From positions 1 through 44,974 of the forward strand of contig CANQBP010000017.1 in NCBI GenBank assembly GCA_947589415.1: a stretch of DNA of 44,974 nt, given 5' to 3'. The notes under the pieces are model-generated. The model did no database searches, was not told where the DNA came from, and saw only the letters and a list, made by a program, of their open reading frames with translations. This DNA is from an uncultured Clostridia bacterium. GTDB lineage: Bacteria > Bacillota > Clostridia > Oscillospirales > Acutalibacteraceae. A program made the position numbers and the translations under genes. Below are positions 34,281-41,402 of the stretch, one piece after another (within the stretch, counting starts at the first letter, position 1; each line of letters begins with the position of its first letter).

Positions 34281-35354
34281 ATGAAAAATTATAACATCAC
34301 TTTGCTTAAGGGTGACGGTATCGGCCCGGAGATAATAAACGAAGCTGTGAAGGTACTTAATGTAACGGCAGAAAAATACGGATTTGAGGTGAAATACGAA
34401 GAGGCTCTTCTCGGCGGATGTGCTATTGACGCAACTGGCGTACCTCTTCCGCAGGAAACTATTGATAAATGCAAGGCGAGCGACAGTGTACTTCTTGGTG
34501 CAGTCGGAGGTCCGAAGTGGGATACCCAGCCGGGTAATAACCGTCCCGAAGCAGGTCTGTTAGGTATAAGGGGCGCTCTCGGACTTTTCGCTAACCTTCG
34601 TCCCGCAGTTATTTTTGAACCTCTGAAAAATGCCTCACCCCTTAGAGAAGATATAATCGGCGAGGCTATGGATATCATGATTGTCCGTGAACTTACCGGC
34701 GGAATTTATTTCGGCAAAAGAGGTAATTTTGAAGAGGACGGTATTCCGGCAGCGTATGATACCGAAAAATATAATGTCAACGAAATCCAAAGAATAGGAA
34801 GAGTAGCCTTTGATATGGCTATGAAAAGGAATAAAAAGCTCACAAGCGTAGATAAAGCTAACGTTCTTGATTCGTCACGTCTTTGGAGAAAAACAATGAT
34901 AGAACTTTCAAAGGAATATCCCGAAGTGGAGTTAAATCATCTCTATGTTGACAACTGCGCTATGCAGCTTGTAAGAAACCCGAAACAGTTCGATGTTATC
35001 GTAACCTCAAATATTTTCGGTGATATTCTTTCCGATGAGGCTTCTATGATAAGCGGCTCAATCGGTATGCTTGCTTCTGCAAGCCTTAACAGCACAAAAC
35101 TCGGTATGTATGAACCTATTCACGGAAGTGCCCCCGACATTGCAGGTCAGGGTATTGCAAATCCGCTTGCAACAATTCTTTCCGTCGCTATGATGCTGCG
35201 GTACTCTCTTGATGAATCCGCTGCCGCCGATGCTATTGAAAATGCTGTTGCAGAAGTACTTAAAACCACAAGAACACCGGATATATACACCGAGGGAATG
35301 AGGAAAGTTTCCACGTCCGAAATGGGCGATGCAGTTTGCTCATTTATTAAATGA
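34281..35354 (+). CDS. leuB: 3-isopropylmalate dehydrogenase
   Basis: 357 residues. LeuB oxidises and decarboxylates 3-isopropylmalate with NAD+ in leucine synthesis. Motifs: [11 protein letters not shown] at the N-terminus, [44 protein letters not shown], then [14 protein letters not shown] and [19 protein letters not shown]. Length is normal. ATG 34281 with ACAGGAGGAG upstream. leuA, leuC and leuD are not in the window, so leuB stands alone, or the other genes lie elsewhere. Confidence 0.97.
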
Positions 35355-35547: not shown

Positions 35548-35808
35548 ATGTCAAGCAAAAAAATAATTAAGCGTATGGAAGTTGACTCCGGATTTTCCTT
35601 TGACAAGATGATAGCTATAAGCCCTTACGCAGAAAGAAAAATCATAGAAAATAAGACAAAGAAACGGCTTATTTTTCCTCAAATTAAAGATTTCAGAAAA
35701 GCAGGCAGGGGCAATCCTTTGATTGCAAGACACGCAATTAAAACTATGGAGGAAGTAGACAAGGAGTTATTCGGCTTGAGGTGGAAATGGGGAAAAACAT
35801 GGAAATAA
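35548..35808 (+). CDS. Small basic protein of unknown function
   Basis: 86 residues, lysine- and arginine-rich, no signal peptide or membrane helix. I do not recognise a family. The gene looks real because it has a sound promoter, a GGGAGG ribosome binding site and a compact length. The C-terminal half (RKAGRGNPLIARHAIKTMEE) is basic, and the end is rich in tryptophan and lysine (RWKWGKTWK), which could suit nucleic acid or membrane contact, but that is only a guess. It lies between two identical hairpins, with a degraded membrane-peptide frame downstream. Confidence 0.6.
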   Translation: MSSKKIIKRMEVDSGFSFDKMIAISPYAERKIIENKTKKRLIFPQIKDFRKAGRGNPLIARHAIKTMEEVDKELFGLRWKWGKTWK

Positions 35809-35920
35809 ATAGTAAAAGTTGCGTTTCTGATTGTTTTACCCCAAAACAGTAAACATTTATCAAAAATATCTTACTTATATATTTCCATTGATAACTGCAA
35901 TATAAACTTTTTTATTAAAA

Positions 35921-36010
35921 ACAATTATCAAAGACCTTATAACAATTTGGTCGTTTATTGTAGGCATTATAGGTATTTTGGTTGGTGTAGCCGGAATACT
36001 TCTAAAATGA
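35921..36010 (+). pseudogene. Remnant reading frame for a short membrane peptide
   Basis: A 29-codon stretch without ATG, GTG or TTG at its front encodes a strongly hydrophobic segment (IWSFIVGIIGILVGVAGILL) ending in K and TGA. This composition is like small holin-like or type I toxin peptides. An in-frame stop lies just upstream and there is no ribosome binding site, so it appears to be a decayed or truncated gene. Confidence 0.3.
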
Positions 36011-36016
36011 AATTTA

Positions 36017-36058
36017 TTGCCGCACGGAAGTTTGCAAAAGCTCCGTGCGGCAATTTTT
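36017..36058 (+). terminator. Second copy of the leuB-type hairpin terminator
   Basis: Same 36-nt hairpin as 35368-35403, here followed on the plus strand by a run of five Ts. It may also end the ABC transporter operon coming from the other side. Confidence 0.75.
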
Positions 36059-36098: not shown

Positions 36099-36797
36099 TT
36101 AAAGCATTTTTGATGCACCCGCCGAACTGCTGTCCGAAATTATTTTGCCGTCGGAGATTTCTATTTGCCTTGTGCAGGAATCAGCGACTGTCCTATCGTG
36201 GGTTATTATTATTACCGTTTTCCCCTCCTCGTTCAGCTTTTTAAAAAGCTGTATAATCTCCTCGGAGGTTTTTGTATCGAGCGCACCGGTAGGCTCGTCC
36301 GCAAGTATGAATGACGGGTCATTCACTATTGCTCTGGCAACGGCTATTCTTTGTTTCTGACCGCCGGACAGATTTGTTACGGGCTTATCTGCATACTCCT
36401 CCATATTTACTGCCTTAAGTGCGGAAATACACATTTCTTTTGCCCTTTTTCCCCTGATTTTTGCAAAATACAGCGGAGTCATTACATTTTGAATTACCGT
36501 ATAGGAATCTATCAATGCAAAATCCTGCATCACAATACCAACCATTTTATTGCGAACCTTTGACAATTCTCTGTCCGAAAGCCTTGAAACATCTTTTCCG
36601 TCGATCTCATAAACTCCGCTTTCAAACTTGTCTATACAGCCTATAATATGGAGCAATGTACTTTTTCCTGCACCCGAACGTCCGATTATGGCAGTCATTT
36701 CTCCGTCTGCTATTTCAAGCGATATATCGTGCAGTGCATGGTATGCATTAGGTTTCTTATAATTGTATGTTTTATTAAGATCGGTTATTTTTATCAT
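36099..36797 (-). CDS. ABC transporter ATP-binding protein (MacB/LolD type)
   Basis: 232 residues. Walker A GRSGAGKST (39-47), Q loop VMQDFALI, signature LSGGQKQRIAVARAI, Walker B FILADEPTGALD and the H loop IIITHD are intact, so it should hydrolyse ATP. The sequence fits the MacB/LolD/SalX group, whose permeases do mechanotransmission or export of peptides and lipids rather than classical import. The second of two adjacent ATGs (36797) has the better distance to AGGAGG. It is the last gene of the cassette, 11 nt after permease 1. Confidence 0.92.
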   Translation of the reverse strand: MIKITDLNKTYNYKKPNAYHALHDISLEIADGEMTAIIGRSGAGKSTLLHIIGCIDKFESGVYEIDGKDVSRLSDRELSKVRNKMVGIVMQDFALIDSYTVIQNVMTPLYFAKIRGKRAKEMCISALKAVNMEEYADKPVTNLSGGQKQRIAVARAIVNDPSFILADEPTGALDTKTSEEIIQLFKKLNEEGKTVIIITHDRTVADSCTRQIEISDGKIISDSSSAGASKML

Positions 36798-36808
36798 CAT
36801 GCTCCTCC

Positions 36809-38041
36809 TTAATGATCCCTAAGTGCATCTTTCGGACTTGATTTTGAAAGCATTATCAGCGGGACAAAAACCATTATCAATATGATAAATGCAACAATGC
36901 CTAAAGTTATATATATATTATTCATGGAGTAGACAACCAGACTATCTATTATCCCCATAAAAATCGAGGCTGTCCATATTATAATGAGTAATATGCATGA
37001 GCTTAACATTAGAATACCGGAATATGCAAGAAGTATCTTTCGCATATCCGACCAATTCATTCCGCAAAGATAATATACCGAATAGGTTTTCATATTGTCT
37101 ATGGAATTGAGTACCATTATACATACAAGTGATACGACCGTCAGTAGAACCGTTCCGAATATGAAAGGAACAAGTGTAAGTATTTGAGAAACTATATCTT
37201 CCATGCTTCTGTCATACATATCCTTGAATTTATTCAGCCAACCCTTTCTGCCAAGATCCGCAATCACATTGCTGCTGCTTTCATCAGCATTATCGTTAAG
37301 GGTGAGTACGGATACTCCACTCTTTTCAAAATAGTCGGCATATTTTTTTGCTTCCGGGTCATCTATTGAAAAATAAACCGCTGTACGCTCCGAACCTGCC
37401 GCTTTGTATGCAGGTCCGATTATTTCAGACAACCCGAGATCCTGTCCGTCGGTCCGAGGATAATATATATATGATTCCTTTCTTATCACACCCGTTACAA
37501 TCATATTCATATATACAGGCTCTGTATCGTCCGTTTCCAACACATCAGAATCAAGAGAAATATGTATTCTGTCACCGACATCATACATACCCTCAAGTGC
37601 TACAACATTGACAGCACCCTCCGTATGCTCTGCATCAGTGTACCACTTTCCGCTCTTCAACTGTCCGCTGTTAAGCTTACTTCCCGTCTTATCATCGGTT
37701 GCTGTATAACTGATATATCTCAAATCACTTACCCATGATTTGTTTTTTAATTGTAATGAACCGGTATATATATGACTAACATCAATTCCCTTATTATCCT
37801 CGGCAGCCTTTATATCTTCATCATCCTGCACTTCTGCATCCTCCGAATATTCCCCCGACTGACAATAATAATATGTTTTTTCCAAATCAAAATTTTTAAC
37901 AGCATCCGTAACGGCAAATTGTTTGTTTATTATTCCTATACAAATGTTCGTAACGAAAAGTGAAAAAGCAATAAGTATTATTAAAAGACAATTTGCCAAG
38001 GTTTTTGTGCTGAGAAGATGTGAACCTAATTTGAAATACAT
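36809..38041 (-). CDS. ABC transporter permease 1 (FtsX/MacB-like)
   Basis: 410 residues: one N-terminal membrane helix (about 14-37), a large extracellular domain (about 40-280), and three C-terminal helices (about 285-310, 335-360, 375-400) ending SKSSPKDALRDH, the usual FtsX-domain tail. Such permeases pair with MacB-type ATPases. The extracellular part is acidic and serine/tyrosine-rich; I do not recognise it. It lies 14 nt after permease 2 and 11 nt before the ATPase. Confidence 0.85.
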   Translation of the reverse strand: MYFKLGSHLLSTKTLANCLLIILIAFSLFVTNICIGIINKQFAVTDAVKNFDLEKTYYYCQSGEYSEDAEVQDDEDIKAAEDNKGIDVSHIYTGSLQLKNKSWVSDLRYISYTATDDKTGSKLNSGQLKSGKWYTDAEHTEGAVNVVALEGMYDVGDRIHISLDSDVLETDDTEPVYMNMIVTGVIRKESYIYYPRTDGQDLGLSEIIGPAYKAAGSERTAVYFSIDDPEAKKYADYFEKSGVSVLTLNDNADESSSNVIADLGRKGWLNKFKDMYDRSMEDIVSQILTLVPFIFGTVLLTVVSLVCIMVLNSIDNMKTYSVYYLCGMNWSDMRKILLAYSGILMLSSCILLIIIWTASIFMGIIDSLVVYSMNNIYITLGIVAFIILIMVFVPLIMLSKSSPKDALRDH

Positions 38042-38055
38042 AATTCTATCTCCCC

Positions 38056-39117
38056 CTATTCCTTAGTAAGCACAGACGGAGAAGTATGTGCTATCCTTGT
38101 CATTGTCGGTATAAATGCCAATGTCTGAACGATTAAAACGGCTATAAAAATACAGATATATTCAACAGGGGTAATATAATACCCGATTTCTGTTGTTATT
38201 GCCTTCATTACGGGCATTACACAAAAAATATGCAGCAACATTCCTATCACATATGTACACAACGATATGAGCAGATTTTCGGACAAATATATTACTGACA
38301 CTTTCAGAACACTACAGCCGCATATTCTTAAAACGGCGGTTTCATGCCTGCGTCTGTTCATCATATAGGAATACAGATATACAATGTTCATTATCGCAAC
38401 GAGCATTACAAATAAAAATACACTAATATATCCTATTGCACTCACATACATATTCGTGGGGTACAAATCGGGGTAAGTGATATTTCCTCCGCCGAGAATA
38501 TTCTGTATATCATCTTCCAATATTTTCACCTCAACACTGCTGAGGTCCTTGTTAAAAACCATACAAATACTCGACAGTTTTACAATGTCGGTCAGGCTGC
38601 TATACGGAACAATAAATTCACTCTCAAGTGTTGACCCTATAATCTTATAATCTTCCCCAAATAGTTCATATGTATCACCTATTTTAACATCCGAAATGTT
38701 GGTATCTTCGGGATTAAATTTATAAACAGCAAGCGCTTCCTTTTTACCCGATTCAAAATTCCTGCGGTCAAAACCTTCCCCCACTGTAACGACTTTTTTT
38801 GTGTCAAAAATATATTCCGCACGAACGGAGTCCTTTCCGCTGACTGTCGATACATAAAACTCGGAAAGCATATCCTTATATCTCTTTGCAAAGCTGCCCA
38901 GCGCATTGTCAAGCTCACTTTTTTCACTGTAATTTTCGCCAATACTTACGGAATATGTGCGGCATTGTTTTTCATCTTCCTTAAAATCCTCAATTGTTTT
39001 CATAGCATAATTGAATACGGATAGAAAAGCGACAACTATACTTATCTGCACGGCTGCAAAGAGGATAAAAACTGTCTTATTTCTGCGGACGAACCTCCAA
39101 AAATTTTTTAATATCAT
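38056..39117 (-). CDS. ABC transporter permease 2 (FtsX/MacB-like)
   Basis: 353 residues with the same plan as permease 1: helix at about 14-37, extracellular domain to about 225, then three helices (about 230-255, 275-300, 320-345) ending IAHTSPSVLTKE. Two different half-permeases plus one ATPase suggest a heterodimeric membrane part. It lies 29 nt after the lipoprotein gene. ATG 39117; the upstream ribosome site is only moderate. Confidence 0.85.
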   Translation of the reverse strand: MILKNFWRFVRRNKTVFILFAAVQISIVVAFLSVFNYAMKTIEDFKEDEKQCRTYSVSIGENYSEKSELDNALGSFAKRYKDMLSEFYVSTVSGKDSVRAEYIFDTKKVVTVGEGFDRRNFESGKKEALAVYKFNPEDTNISDVKIGDTYELFGEDYKIIGSTLESEFIVPYSSLTDIVKLSSICMVFNKDLSSVEVKILEDDIQNILGGGNITYPDLYPTNMYVSAIGYISVFLFVMLVAIMNIVYLYSYMMNRRRHETAVLRICGCSVLKVSVIYLSENLLISLCTYVIGMLLHIFCVMPVMKAITTEIGYYITPVEYICIFIAVLIVQTLAFIPTMTRIAHTSPSVLTKE

Positions 39118-39146
39118 ACTTTTCTCCTAAATTCAAAATAAACAGA

Positions 39147-39725
39147 TTACTTGAAATATAACGGTAACGCTTCCTCATTCATATCATAAGACAAAATCAA
39201 TGTTCCATTTTCATCAATGTCAAACGTAACAATGTCTTTTTCTTCATTCTCGTCATAAAAATCCGATCCGTCAACATAAGCATACAGAACTGCCGTATTT
39301 TCTCCCTCTTCTTGAACATAATAGAAGGTCGCATCATTGTCCACAAATTGTTTCTTCAGATCCACATGGTCGAGATATTCCTTTTCAGCCTGTTCAAATA
39401 ATTTATTTTCTTCTTCCTCACTCAAATTTTCGGCATCATCAACCGAGTCACTCCAATGAAACATAGCATACACATACGCTTTTTCCTCTTCAATGTACGA
39501 AACATCAAAGTTATCCGAAAATTGCAGCTTACATTGCTTATCAAACTCCGGACTATCGGGTGTATCCTTGCAATCACTTACAGCTAAATAAATACTCGAA
39601 TCGCTTTCGTTATAATATACACCATTGCCAAACTCTCTTACTGATTTACAGCCGCTAGAAAACACCATAGATGCTGGAAGTGTAAACATAGTTAAAAATC
39701 TGAAAACATTTTTCATTTCCATCAT
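39147..39725 (-). CDS. Lipoprotein of unknown function
   Basis: 192 residues. The N-terminus has a hydrophobic signal and a lipobox-like VFSSGC with the acylated cysteine at C26, so the mature protein is anchored outside the membrane. The rest is very acidic (many D and E) with YDENEEKDIVTFDIDENGTL near the end. I do not recognise a family. The start is uncertain: three ATG codons lie within the first five residues, and GAGAG is the only nearby site. It is followed by the two permeases, so it may be a substrate-binding or immunity-type partner. Confidence 0.78.
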   Translation of the reverse strand: MMEMKNVFRFLTMFTLPASMVFSSGCKSVREFGNGVYYNESDSSIYLAVSDCKDTPDSPEFDKQCKLQFSDNFDVSYIEEEKAYVYAMFHWSDSVDDAENLSEEEENKLFEQAEKEYLDHVDLKKQFVDNDATFYYVQEEGENTAVLYAYVDGSDFYDENEEKDIVTFDIDENGTLILSYDMNEEALPLYFK

Positions 39726-39753
39726 ATCAACTCTCGCTACATATTTATTCTGT

Positions 39754-39790
39754 TAAGCTAATAGCTGCATTAAATGCTGCTATTAGCTTA
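39754..39790 (-). promoter_or_regulatory. Intercistronic hairpin between the secreted protein and the lipoprotein genes
   Basis: Perfect 12-bp stem (39754-39765 with 39779-39790). There is no T run after it on the minus strand, so it is more likely a processing site, mRNA stabiliser or partial terminator than a full stop. It would favour the secreted protein over the downstream transporter. Confidence 0.6.
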
Positions 39791-39904
39791 GTCACAATCG
39801 TTTATTCATATCTAATCACATATTTAAAAAGACTTTGAACTTTCGCAATTAGGGAAATATTTGCTGATGTTTCAGAATCAAAGTTCTTTCTCTATATGCA
39901 CAAA

Positions 39905-40432
39905 TTATGAGTAAAAAGCTCTAACAGAAGTACTAACTTTGGTTCCATTTTTTGCTTTGGTCTGACCAAATTCGTAGCATTGAACATACAAATTGGTACA
40001 ACTGGAATAATCTTTAACATCATAACTAAAAACTTGCTCCGTTGCCCTATTTGCACACTTTTTTGTGTTCACAACATTATCACGTCTTAAATTACCATTG
40101 CCGTTAACATACGTACAAGTAGTCTTGACTTTCACATAGGTATCCGCAAGATTCGGCCCTGCCCAAAGCCATGCTTTAGTATTCCAATTCCAATACCACC
40201 AATAATTCATCGCAGACTCACTTATTTTTGCCAACTGTGTTTTTTTAAATACACTTTCATCATACAAATAAAAATTATGCTTTTGTTGAGTTACAGTGTT
40301 AATTTGGTAACGGACTGTTTTATTGTCATAGCTTGGCATTCCCGCAGCCCCTACTGCAATACTTCCGCAAGCAACTGTCACAATAGCAGCAAACACCGAT
40401 ACGGCTGTAATAAGCTTTGTTTTTATTTTCAT
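39905..40432 (-). CDS. Secreted Trp-rich cysteine-containing protein of unknown function
   Basis: 175 residues. Signal peptide 1-30 (basic MKIKTK, hydrophobic core, IAVGAA before G31). The mature part has an unusual aromatic segment with six tryptophans (W78, W79, W81, W83, W88, W90) and four cysteines (C106, C126, C145, C152), enough for two disulfides outside the cell. The C-terminal half looks beta-rich. I recognise no family. ATG 40432 with GGAGG nine bases upstream is clearly preferred over a TTG five codons earlier. A dedicated promoter and palindrome stand upstream, and a lipoprotein and ABC transporter lie downstream. A bacteriocin-like or cell-envelope-active role is a hypothesis. 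Confidence 0.75.
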   Translation of the reverse strand: MKIKTKLITAVSVFAAIVTVACGSIAVGAAGMPSYDNKTVRYQINTVTQQKHNFYLYDESVFKKTQLAKISESAMNYWWYWNWNTKAWLWAGPNLADTYVKVKTTCTYVNGNGNLRRDNVVNTKKCANRATEQVFSYDVKDYSSCTNLYVQCYEFGQTKAKNGTKVSTSVRAFYS

Positions 40433-40464
40433 TTTTATTTCCTCCAAACATAAAAGATTTTTTA

Positions 40465-40478
40465 ATGACTTAAGTCAT
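40465..40478. promoter_or_regulatory. 14-bp perfect palindrome at the secreted-protein start site
   Basis: ATGACTTAAGTCAT is a perfect palindrome. It lies directly downstream of the -10 box, about where transcription should start, a classic repressor position. I cannot assign a regulator. Confidence 0.65.
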
Positions 40479-40482
40479 ATTT

Positions 40483-40511
40483 ATAATATAACACTTTCAC
40501 TCAAATGTAAA
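40483..40511 (-). promoter_or_regulatory. Promoter of the secreted-protein/ABC cassette
   Basis: Minus strand TTTACA (40506-40511), 17-bp spacer, TATTAT (40483-40488). It lies 51 bp upstream of the secreted-protein ATG. Confidence 0.72.
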
Positions 40512-40640: not shown

Positions 40641-41360
40641 TCATGTCGAATTCATGACATTTCCGAGTACCTGTCCGATAGGGTCACGAATTACTATATC
40701 GGCATTTCTGTCAAACGGAGTTTTCGACTTATTCAGCAAAACTATTTTATTTCCATTGAAATAATCAAGAAATCCCGCTGCCGGATATACATTGAGGGAC
40801 GTTCCGCCGATTATAAGCAAATCAGCATCAGCAATTGCCTTTACTGCTCCAACTACCGTTTCATCATCAAGTCCCTCCTCATAAAGCACAACGTCCGGCT
40901 TTATCATGCCGCCGCACTCACACCTCGGAATACCTTCGCTTTCGGTTATTACCGTCAGATCATAAAACCTATGACATTTCATACAATAATTTCTTAGAAC
41001 CGATCCGTGCAGCTCATATACTTTTTTACTTCCGGCAAGCTGATGCAGTCCGTCTATATTCTGTGTGACAACCGCTTTCAGCTTTCCCTGTTCTTCAAGT
41101 AGTGCAAGTGCCTTATGCGCCTTATTCGGACGTGCATCGGTACATATCATCTTTGCACGGTAAAAATCATAAAAATCCTTAGGTTTTGACATAAAAAAGC
41201 TATGGCTTAGTATAGTTTCGGGAGGATATTTATATTTCTGATTATATAGTCCGTCAACACTTCGGAAATCAGGAATACCGCTTTCTGTCGAAACACCCGC
41301 ACCCCCAAAAAATACAATGCTCTCGCTTTCGTTGATTGCTTTTTTTAACTCATCATACAT
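40641..41360 (-). CDS. cobB: NAD-dependent protein deacylase, Sir2 family
   Basis: 239 residues. NAD-binding GGAGVSTESGIPDFRS, catalytic-site TQNIDGLHQLAGS with LHGS (the active histidine), and a four-cysteine zinc motif (YCMKCHRF, then CECGG) identify a sirtuin. It removes acyl groups from lysines using NAD+, making nicotinamide and O-acyl-ADP-ribose. The C-terminal NAD-binding part (IIGGTSLNVYPAAGF) is intact. ATG 41360 with GGGGAG upstream; an upstream GTG nine bases earlier is too close to the site. Divergent from the Rrf2 gene. Confidence 0.94.
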   Translation of the reverse strand: MYDELKKAINESESIVFFGGAGVSTESGIPDFRSVDGLYNQKYKYPPETILSHSFFMSKPKDFYDFYRAKMICTDARPNKAHKALALLEEQGKLKAVVTQNIDGLHQLAGSKKVYELHGSVLRNYCMKCHRFYDLTVITESEGIPRCECGGMIKPDVVLYEEGLDDETVVGAVKAIADADLLIIGGTSLNVYPAAGFLDYFNGNKIVLLNKSKTPFDRNADIVIRDPIGQVLGNVMNST

Positions 41361-41402
41361 AAAAATCACACTCCCCGATTTATTTCTTACAGCCTCATAT
41401 TA

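Follow-up and report, generated by a model that had tools for sequence, protein, structure and literature searches.

The 44,974-nucleotide (nt) window analysed here is contig 17 of the 2.29-Mb, 95-contig genome of an uncultured Clostridia bacterium. At 36099-40432 it carries five genes, all on the minus strand, which we call SEC (a small secreted protein), LIP (a lipoprotein), PER1 and PER2 (two FtsX/MacB-like permeases) and ATPase (the ATPase of an ATP-binding cassette, ABC, transporter). We consider this cassette to be probably a bacteriocin-type locus, where a Sec-secreted protein stands together with a protective split ABC transporter, in a variant not described before. The literature searches made found no published description of the cassette, and the claim of novelty is limited to these.

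The N-terminus of the ATPase (KTYNYKKxNA) is distinctive. Used as a query against genome_contigs (84,980 species), it matched at 38 loci. All of these carry Clostridia-type labels, and the record titles of many point to the gut of ruminants or rabbits. One named isolate is present among them, Pseudoruminococcus massiliensis, whose cassette (L086) lacks SEC. The same N-terminus had no match in viral contigs. The genus of the window holds 30 strong ATPase matches (E<1e-20), found in 20 of its 64 genomes, with up to four per genome.

A small Sec-type protein lies upstream of PER1, or between PER1 and PER2 (second unit of L068; L214), in 23 of the 38 readable cassettes, window included. This supports the claim of a first-pass annotation of this DNA that the genes form one secreted-protein/ABC-transporter system. 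These proteins were called by reading, and not by the automatic secretion rule used below. Two of them are interrupted by stops (L079 and the first unit of L081). In the first unit of L068 the gene runs into the contig edge, and in L095 its start is uncertain. In terms of the count, duplicate loci were merged (L062=L079, L063=L109, L065=L105, L066=L110, L067=L102, L072=L080, L074=L081, L076=L086). Loci with a contig edge or an unreadable region upstream of PER1 were excluded (L083, L085, L093, L098, L100, L105, L106, L107, L112, L193), as were L070, L071, L073, L075 and L077, where the ATPase is 45-50% identical or not adjacent. Cassettes with PER2 or ATPase cut by the contig end were counted (L069, second unit of L081, L114, L115, L214), and so was L064, which has no adjacent ATPase. 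Between SEC and PER1 there is a lipoprotein in the window and in L103, and two membrane proteins in L064.

The slot is also enriched under an automatic rule. Among size-matched open reading frames (ORFs; 90-240 amino acids, aa) of the 38 ATPase-motif loci, 10/17 directly upstream of PER1 score as secreted, against 11/127 of the other ORFs (Fisher p 5e-6); the 10 include the L103 lipoprotein, 4 of the 11 control ORFs scored as secreted are SEC or LIP genes of cassettes, and the secretion rule was self-made and written after the SECs had been seen.

As for the proteins in this slot, a main family accounts for 12 of the 17 SECs compared, with the motif YKYxSxTxYxY ... KVxYxGxxY ... SG ... R.G.P. 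In pairwise tests the SECs of the window, L064, L082, L094 and L103 each stand alone as singletons; against the family profile, those of L082 and L103 score marginally (E 2e-4 to 3e-3 in the 17-sequence set). According to the first-pass annotation, SEC homologues regularly found without the transporter, or a match to a housekeeping secreted family, would count against one system. The main family adjoins a cassette in 14/14 genus matches; 12 of these belong to the model as rows, another closely copies such a row and the last is independent. Away from cassettes, no member was found in 394 genomes of the order, apart from two weak matches (E ~6e-4) in frames of more than 1200 codons. A match in G029 (E 4e-4) lies in an unrelated protein and was rejected. 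Pfam and NCBIfam scans gave no housekeeping secreted family for the SECs, with nothing better than E 0.025 in Pfam and 0.004 in NCBIfam for the 19 scanned (the 17 compared plus L192 and L194). Single SECs matched WGxxGxxG and BLB8/JUQZ-1 (E 0.02-0.2); these matches fall far short of cutoff, start within the signal peptide and were discarded.

The SEC of the window has a K-rich start, a hydrophobic core and an AxA-like site (by our own rule), and six Trp clustered at residues 78-90. Cys 22 is located in the signal peptide and Cys 106, 126, 145 and 152 in the mature part. This SEC joins the others by position and not by sequence, because it is a singleton in the pairwise tests. Its best Pfam match is no better than E 0.11, and NCBIfam gave nothing at E<=1. 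LIP has no Pfam or NCBIfam family at cutoff either, and the earlier statement that no family is recognised for these two proteins holds. No homologue of the window SEC beyond itself was found at E<=1e-3 in 300 family genomes or the 64 genus genomes, none at E<=1e-3 in genome_contigs and none at E<=1 in plasmids. Two weak matches in genus genomes (E 0.026 and 0.09) sit in unrelated regions and were set aside. By eye, its signal peptide is similar to the one in L064, a locus of the same genus.

In terms of structure, SEC is probably a beta-rich folded protein, judging from the model of a relative (L092) and not of the window SEC. The L092 SEC, a main-family member with 121 mature aa modelled from a 10-sequence alignment, gave a predicted local distance difference test (pLDDT) of 70 and a predicted template modelling (TM) score (pTM) of 0.65, with seven beta strands and no helix. 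Its best 50 matches in the PDB are mainly generic sandwiches of the fibronectin type III or immunoglobulin-like kind (query TM 0.40-0.53), with none at E<=0.001, and none of the 50 is a lactococcin 972 by name. Searches with the A5 profile and the SEC and LIP sequences gave no significant relative of solved structure.

The transporter genes are better defined. PER1 reaches 46 bits against PF02687 (cutoff 25.5), PER2 16.9 bits, below this cutoff, and the ATPase 109.7 bits against PF00005 (cutoff 25). The FtsX permease domain and ABC ATPase of an FtsX/MacB-type ABC transporter are both present. The best NCBIfam model for the ATPase is TIGR03608, which describes the ATPases of lactococcin 972 loci, with 222 bits under a cutoff of 254.85 and with the LolD and MacB models close behind; the ATPases of four other cassettes have 219-228 bits for TIGR03608, close to LolD, FtsE or MacB. 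Full-length relatives of PER1 are at most 38% identical in syntenic cassettes (88% in L078), and relatives of PER2 come after PER1 in these. The PER1 search gave matches in 121/300 family genomes, mostly through the common FtsX C-terminus, and 16 places were read. In L082 (1076-6465) the permeases form an array, PER1-PER2-PER2-PER1, followed by a single ATPase.

Under the bacteriocin-type reading, SEC would leave the cell by the general Sec pathway, as its signal peptide suggests, and because of this signal the ABC transporter would not be needed for its export. SEC would then be active extracellularly, against the envelope of related bacteria. PER1, PER2 and the ATPase would form one MacB/FtsX-type ABC transporter, which may keep SEC or similar proteins off the membrane or cell-wall targets of the producer. 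LIP is a candidate accessory or immunity protein, possibly a locus-specific factor at the surface that may bind the basic SEC. A rival explanation is that the transporter exports or releases SEC, as a MacB-like exporter with Sec-delivered cargo, instead of protecting the cell. TIGR03608 is indeed named "putative bacteriocin export ABC transporter", and SEC and the permeases co-vary (see below). We find this unlikely, given that SEC carries its own Sec-type signal and that cassettes without SEC persist (15/38), some of them behind sigma-type or MarR genes. In addition, streptococcin B is secreted in backgrounds without ComAB and BlpAB, which supports Sec, according to the excerpted text of PMC11796350.

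Conservation is uneven across the cassette. Pairwise identity averages 0.74 for the ATPase (13 sequences, pairs ranging from 58 to 97%), 0.28 for PER1 (16), 0.28 for PER2 (15) and 0.23 for mature SEC (16), so that the ATPase is conserved and the permeases and SECs are variable. In Mantel tests, the identity of SEC is correlated with PER1 identity (rho 0.34, p 0.0014) and with PER2 identity (0.36, p 0.001), and the genes therefore travel together. This co-travel is supported; a specific co-adaptation of SEC and permeases is not implied by the correlations. A second alternative is that SEC is an unrelated secreted protein found by chance beside a detoxifying ABC transporter, with no system at all. 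The window SEC is a sequence singleton, parted from the other genes by a gap with a hairpin, and the transporter also occurs without SEC (15/38), as this alternative would have it. It is nevertheless improbable, since secreted proteins fill the slot in 23/38 cassettes, with the enrichment given above (10/17 against 11/127, p 5e-6), and the main SEC family was found only beside cassettes in the genomes of the genus and order that were searched.

Furthermore, some cassettes have regulatory neighbours. A gene of the extracytoplasmic function (ECF) sigma type precedes six SEC-less cassettes, and a MarR gene precedes one (L113). At L091, L096, L097, L099, L101 and L108 an ECF-sigma-type gene and a protein of 431-466 aa are found directly before the transporter, replacing SEC; the two of these proteins that were scanned have no Pfam match at cutoff. 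As for agr-type genes, two distinct cassette loci contain AgrB (L092, L102) and four contain a pair of LytTR and GHKL genes (L084, L092, L102 and the SEC-less L109); L082, L094 and L099 have weaker LytTR-type matches. Neither the window nor the 20 leuB control loci gave any such match; the controls span 145 kb, compared with 478 kb for the cassette loci. The models were built partly from these same loci, with the L092 LytTR and GHKL held out, and the association is suggestive only. BceAB-type transporters act as sensors, and FtsX-type permeases can be sensors. A BceAB-like sensing unit, with SEC as secreted signal or surface-stress reporter and the permeases as sensor, would account for the ECF-sigma-type, MarR and agr-type neighbours, and yet it is the least probable of the alternatives, as the window cassette holds no kinase or regulator and SECs differ greatly in sequence for what would be a shared signal.

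Several points weigh against a bacteriocin-type locus. The step from architecture to antibacterial action is one that we infer. Of the 38 readable cassettes, 15 have the transporter and no SEC. The window SEC has no sequence similarity to the 16 other SECs (Z -1.4 to 0.9), and its structure model, with 13 relatives, is unusable (pLDDT 45). The SEC-PER1 correlation disappears on controlling for PER2 (0.03, p 0.39), and common descent might by itself be enough to produce the SEC-permease correlations. LIP is found in only 2 of the 64 genus genomes, once in the window and twice in G322 (L078). Lastly, just four distinct cassettes have agr-type pairs nearby; one of the four is SEC-less, the window's is not among them, and the control set is small.

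The five genes are flanked by sir2 (40641-41369, PF02146) and leuB (34281-35354, named from its sequence). The ORFs confirm what the first-pass annotation had described, namely five same-strand genes for a Trp-rich secreted protein with four mature cysteines, a lipoprotein, two permeases and an ATPase. It had also given gaps of 11-29 nt among the last four. The LIP-PER1 and PER1-PER2 gaps are indeed 29 and 14 nt, and the PER2-ATPase gap is 8 nt, becoming 11 only if the start is the second Met. SEC and LIP are 179 nt apart. By eye, ribosome-binding sites are clear at 4/5 genes and weak at LIP. The proposal of one promoter for all five genes is not supported. Promoter-like sites number 20 in the region, against 22.4 expected in shuffles, and the match at 40511-40483 is one of these; it is a weak site because such sites are no commoner than in shuffles. 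The 191-nt stretch around the SEC-LIP hairpin folds at z = -3.4 against shuffles. With this strong hairpin in the 179-nt gap, SEC and the LIP-PER1-PER2-ATPase group may differ in expression level.

Table 1. Features of the cassette and its surroundings (window coordinates, unless a locus is given), with the second transporter lineage.
Feature	Position	Strand	Basis
SEC, 175-aa secreted protein	39905..40432	-	ATG start; sequence reading
SEC signal peptide, Sec-type, ~residues 1-29	40343..40432	-	own rule on sequence
LIP, 192-aa acidic lipoprotein	39147..39725	-	SSGC lipobox by eye; net charge -31
PER1, 353-aa FtsX/MacB-like permease	38056..39117	-	PF02687 E 6e-12
PER2, 410-aa second FtsX/MacB-like permease	36809..38041	-	PF02687 E 0.007, below cutoff
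ABC ATPase with subfamily motif KTYNYKKxNA	36099..36800	-	ABC_tran (PF00005) E 2e-31
Promoter-like -35/-10, TTTACA-17-TATTAT, 5' of SEC	40483..40511	-	10/12 consensus matches; weak
SEC-LIP hairpin with a 12-bp stem, lacking a U-tract	39754..39790	-	fold z-score
Terminator-like inverted repeat 3' of cassette	36019..36058	.	by eye: GCCGCACGGA/TCCGTGCGGC, then T-run on + strand; unlisted by scanner
Lineage II loci	L195:2257-6676, L196:1267-4442 (own genome, contig 7), L198:2857-6316, L199:728-7965		

Next to the cassette, an 86-aa ORF at 35548-35808 has no Pfam match, and a short hydrophobic frame at about 35920-36010 (...WSFIVGIIGILVGVAGILLK) recalls small membrane toxins.

The cassette is an accessory element of the sir2-leuB site. 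In the related G322 (L078), the same site has leuB 98%, ATPase 95%, PER2 93% and PER1 88% identical, and the order is LIP, LIP', PER1, PER2, ATPase, with SEC absent. The leuB region at 20 other places in the genus (some of them stretches of 2-5 kb) has the cassette in none and sir2 in four. The sir2-leuB interval is only 128 bp in G319, and a second contig of G322 (L141) has other genes between sir2 and leuB. The cassette is called accessory because of these cassette-free places. With two different sir2-leuB contigs, the metagenome-assembled genome of G322 may mix strains.

LIP is not a standard part of the cassette, because of its restriction to two genus genomes. Its relatives at E<=1e-3 in the 300 family genomes, besides the window, are only G084 (3e-4) and G133 (6e-4). 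On inspection, L033 proved to be another lipoprotein, next to a permease that is FtsX-like by eye, and L034 looks cytoplasmic; both were rejected. In L078 a second LIP copy (1282-1822) has a degraded signal and lipobox N-terminus and stands beside the intact, divergent copy. L103 repeats the five-gene order with a lipoprotein of unrelated sequence (Z -0.2).

Other cassettes vary in layout. The genome of the window has a second region, on contig 44, where the cassette genes are tandemly duplicated (L068:316-9412). L214 (51-3011) is a cassette region with SEC between the permeases, as in the second unit of L068. L064 (4617-9764) consists of SEC, the two extra membrane proteins, PER1 and PER2, and its genome has a cassette-type ATPase on another contig (G121 contig 96).

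A second lineage of loci (lineage II; same genome contig 7, G319 and G214) has 1-2 small secreted proteins, at least two FtsX-type permeases and an ATPase without KTYNYKK. Of the two L195 permeases scanned, one is above the FtsX cutoff and one just below. The secreted proteins share YFETxxxxHxxRxGTH and have no family match at cutoff. L199 has a permease array, and L196 has a second transporter unit without secreted protein. This suggests that the cassette plan recurs on more than one transporter lineage. More tentatively, the cassettes may represent a polymorphic antagonism system of gut Clostridia, with a conserved split FtsX-type ABC chassis and a slot for hypervariable bacteriocins, probably beta-rich and of no known family. 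Inducible immunity would come from the SEC-less copies that follow ECF-sigma-type or MarR genes, and at least one further lineage (lineage II) would follow the same plan.

If the bacteriocin-type reading is true, Ruminococcus-like gut bacteria have a pool of secreted antagonists that a pipeline built around known bacteriocin families would overlook. Such cassettes could be mined simply by looking for the ATPase signature KTYNYKK together with two FtsX permeases, and whether ABC systems of this kind confer immunity could be tested directly on the SEC-less copies.

In comparison with known systems, MacB, LolCDE and FtsEX transporters also combine FtsX-type permeases with an ATPase, and the window ATPase scores about equally for TIGR03608, LolD, MacB and FtsE. 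Unlike these, the cassette has no adaptor gene, two half-size permeases and, in many cases, a slot for a secreted protein. AS-48 is a circular bacteriocin. The enterocin DD14 and AS-48-type transporters (DdHIJ, As-48 FGH) place a MacB-type permease and an ATPase in a bacteriocin locus; EntDD14 is leaderless and DdH is an adaptor of the resistance-nodulation-division type, whereas the cassette product has a Sec-type signal and no adaptor gene is present (excerpts of PMC9865063).

Finally, the closest analogy is with lactococcin 972-type loci, as the first-pass annotation had proposed. Like the cassette, these (streptococcin B scbABC; mediterrocin) have a secreted protein with Sec signal, a multi-spanning membrane protein and an ABC ATPase. 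A Sec-type signal with a small mature protein, as in the lactococcin 972 family, is found in SEC by our own rule. A beta-sandwich fold is a defining feature of that family; on this point the cassettes offer the L092 model, with seven strands and generic PDB matches, and a window SEC model that is unusable. The bacteriocin gene of these loci is often missing while the other two genes stay, as in SEC-less cassettes. In excerpts of PMC11796350, the pneumococcal scb locus is complete in 414/571 genomes and lacks only the bacteriocin (scbBC kept) in 157; the paper adds that what the B and C products do has not been verified for any lactococcin 972 locus. The scb genes are controlled by a peptide. 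Mediterrocin, in excerpts of PMC12345188, is an 89-residue Sec-type protein of beta-strand structure with 18% identity to lactococcin 972, its cluster encodes a DUF1430 seven-transmembrane (7TM) protein and an ABC protein, and its Sec signal makes the ABC transporter unnecessary for export. In the excerpted Hungate1000 rumen bacteriocin survey, lactococcin 972-like peptides are named by PF09683 (PMC13289728).

The differences concern the components. Lactococcin 972 loci have one 7TM DUF1430/TIGR01654 protein, whereas the cassette has two separate FtsX permeases; PER1 and PER2 score 9.8 and 12.1 bits for TIGR01654, at noise level (cutoff 189.35), and DUF1430 is absent at E<=1 from the Pfam scan of the permeases. 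The cassette adds a lipoprotein, its mature products have about 100-150 aa against 89 in mediterrocin, and the window ATPase is below the TIGR03608 cutoff, unlike in lactococcin 972 loci. The product family (TIGR01653/PF09683) has no match at E<=1 in the window SEC or in the 17 SECs compared, and TIGR01653 is above cutoff in 0/64 genus genomes, with a positive Lactococcus lactis control. One lineage II protein matches TIGR01653 over residues 1-52 at E 0.24. A sub-cutoff TIGR01653 match (22.4 bits, E 2e-4) is seen in a 499-codon frame of L203 (G343 contig 74). Tests for the product family, the single 7TM protein and the ATPase cutoff all came out negative for the cassette, which for this reason is not a lactococcin 972 member. 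The arrangement, the Sec-type signal, the variable product, the SEC-less relative and the SEC-less cassettes behind regulators all fit the lactococcin 972 type of locus, and the cassette is thus one that would work like such loci without belonging to that family.

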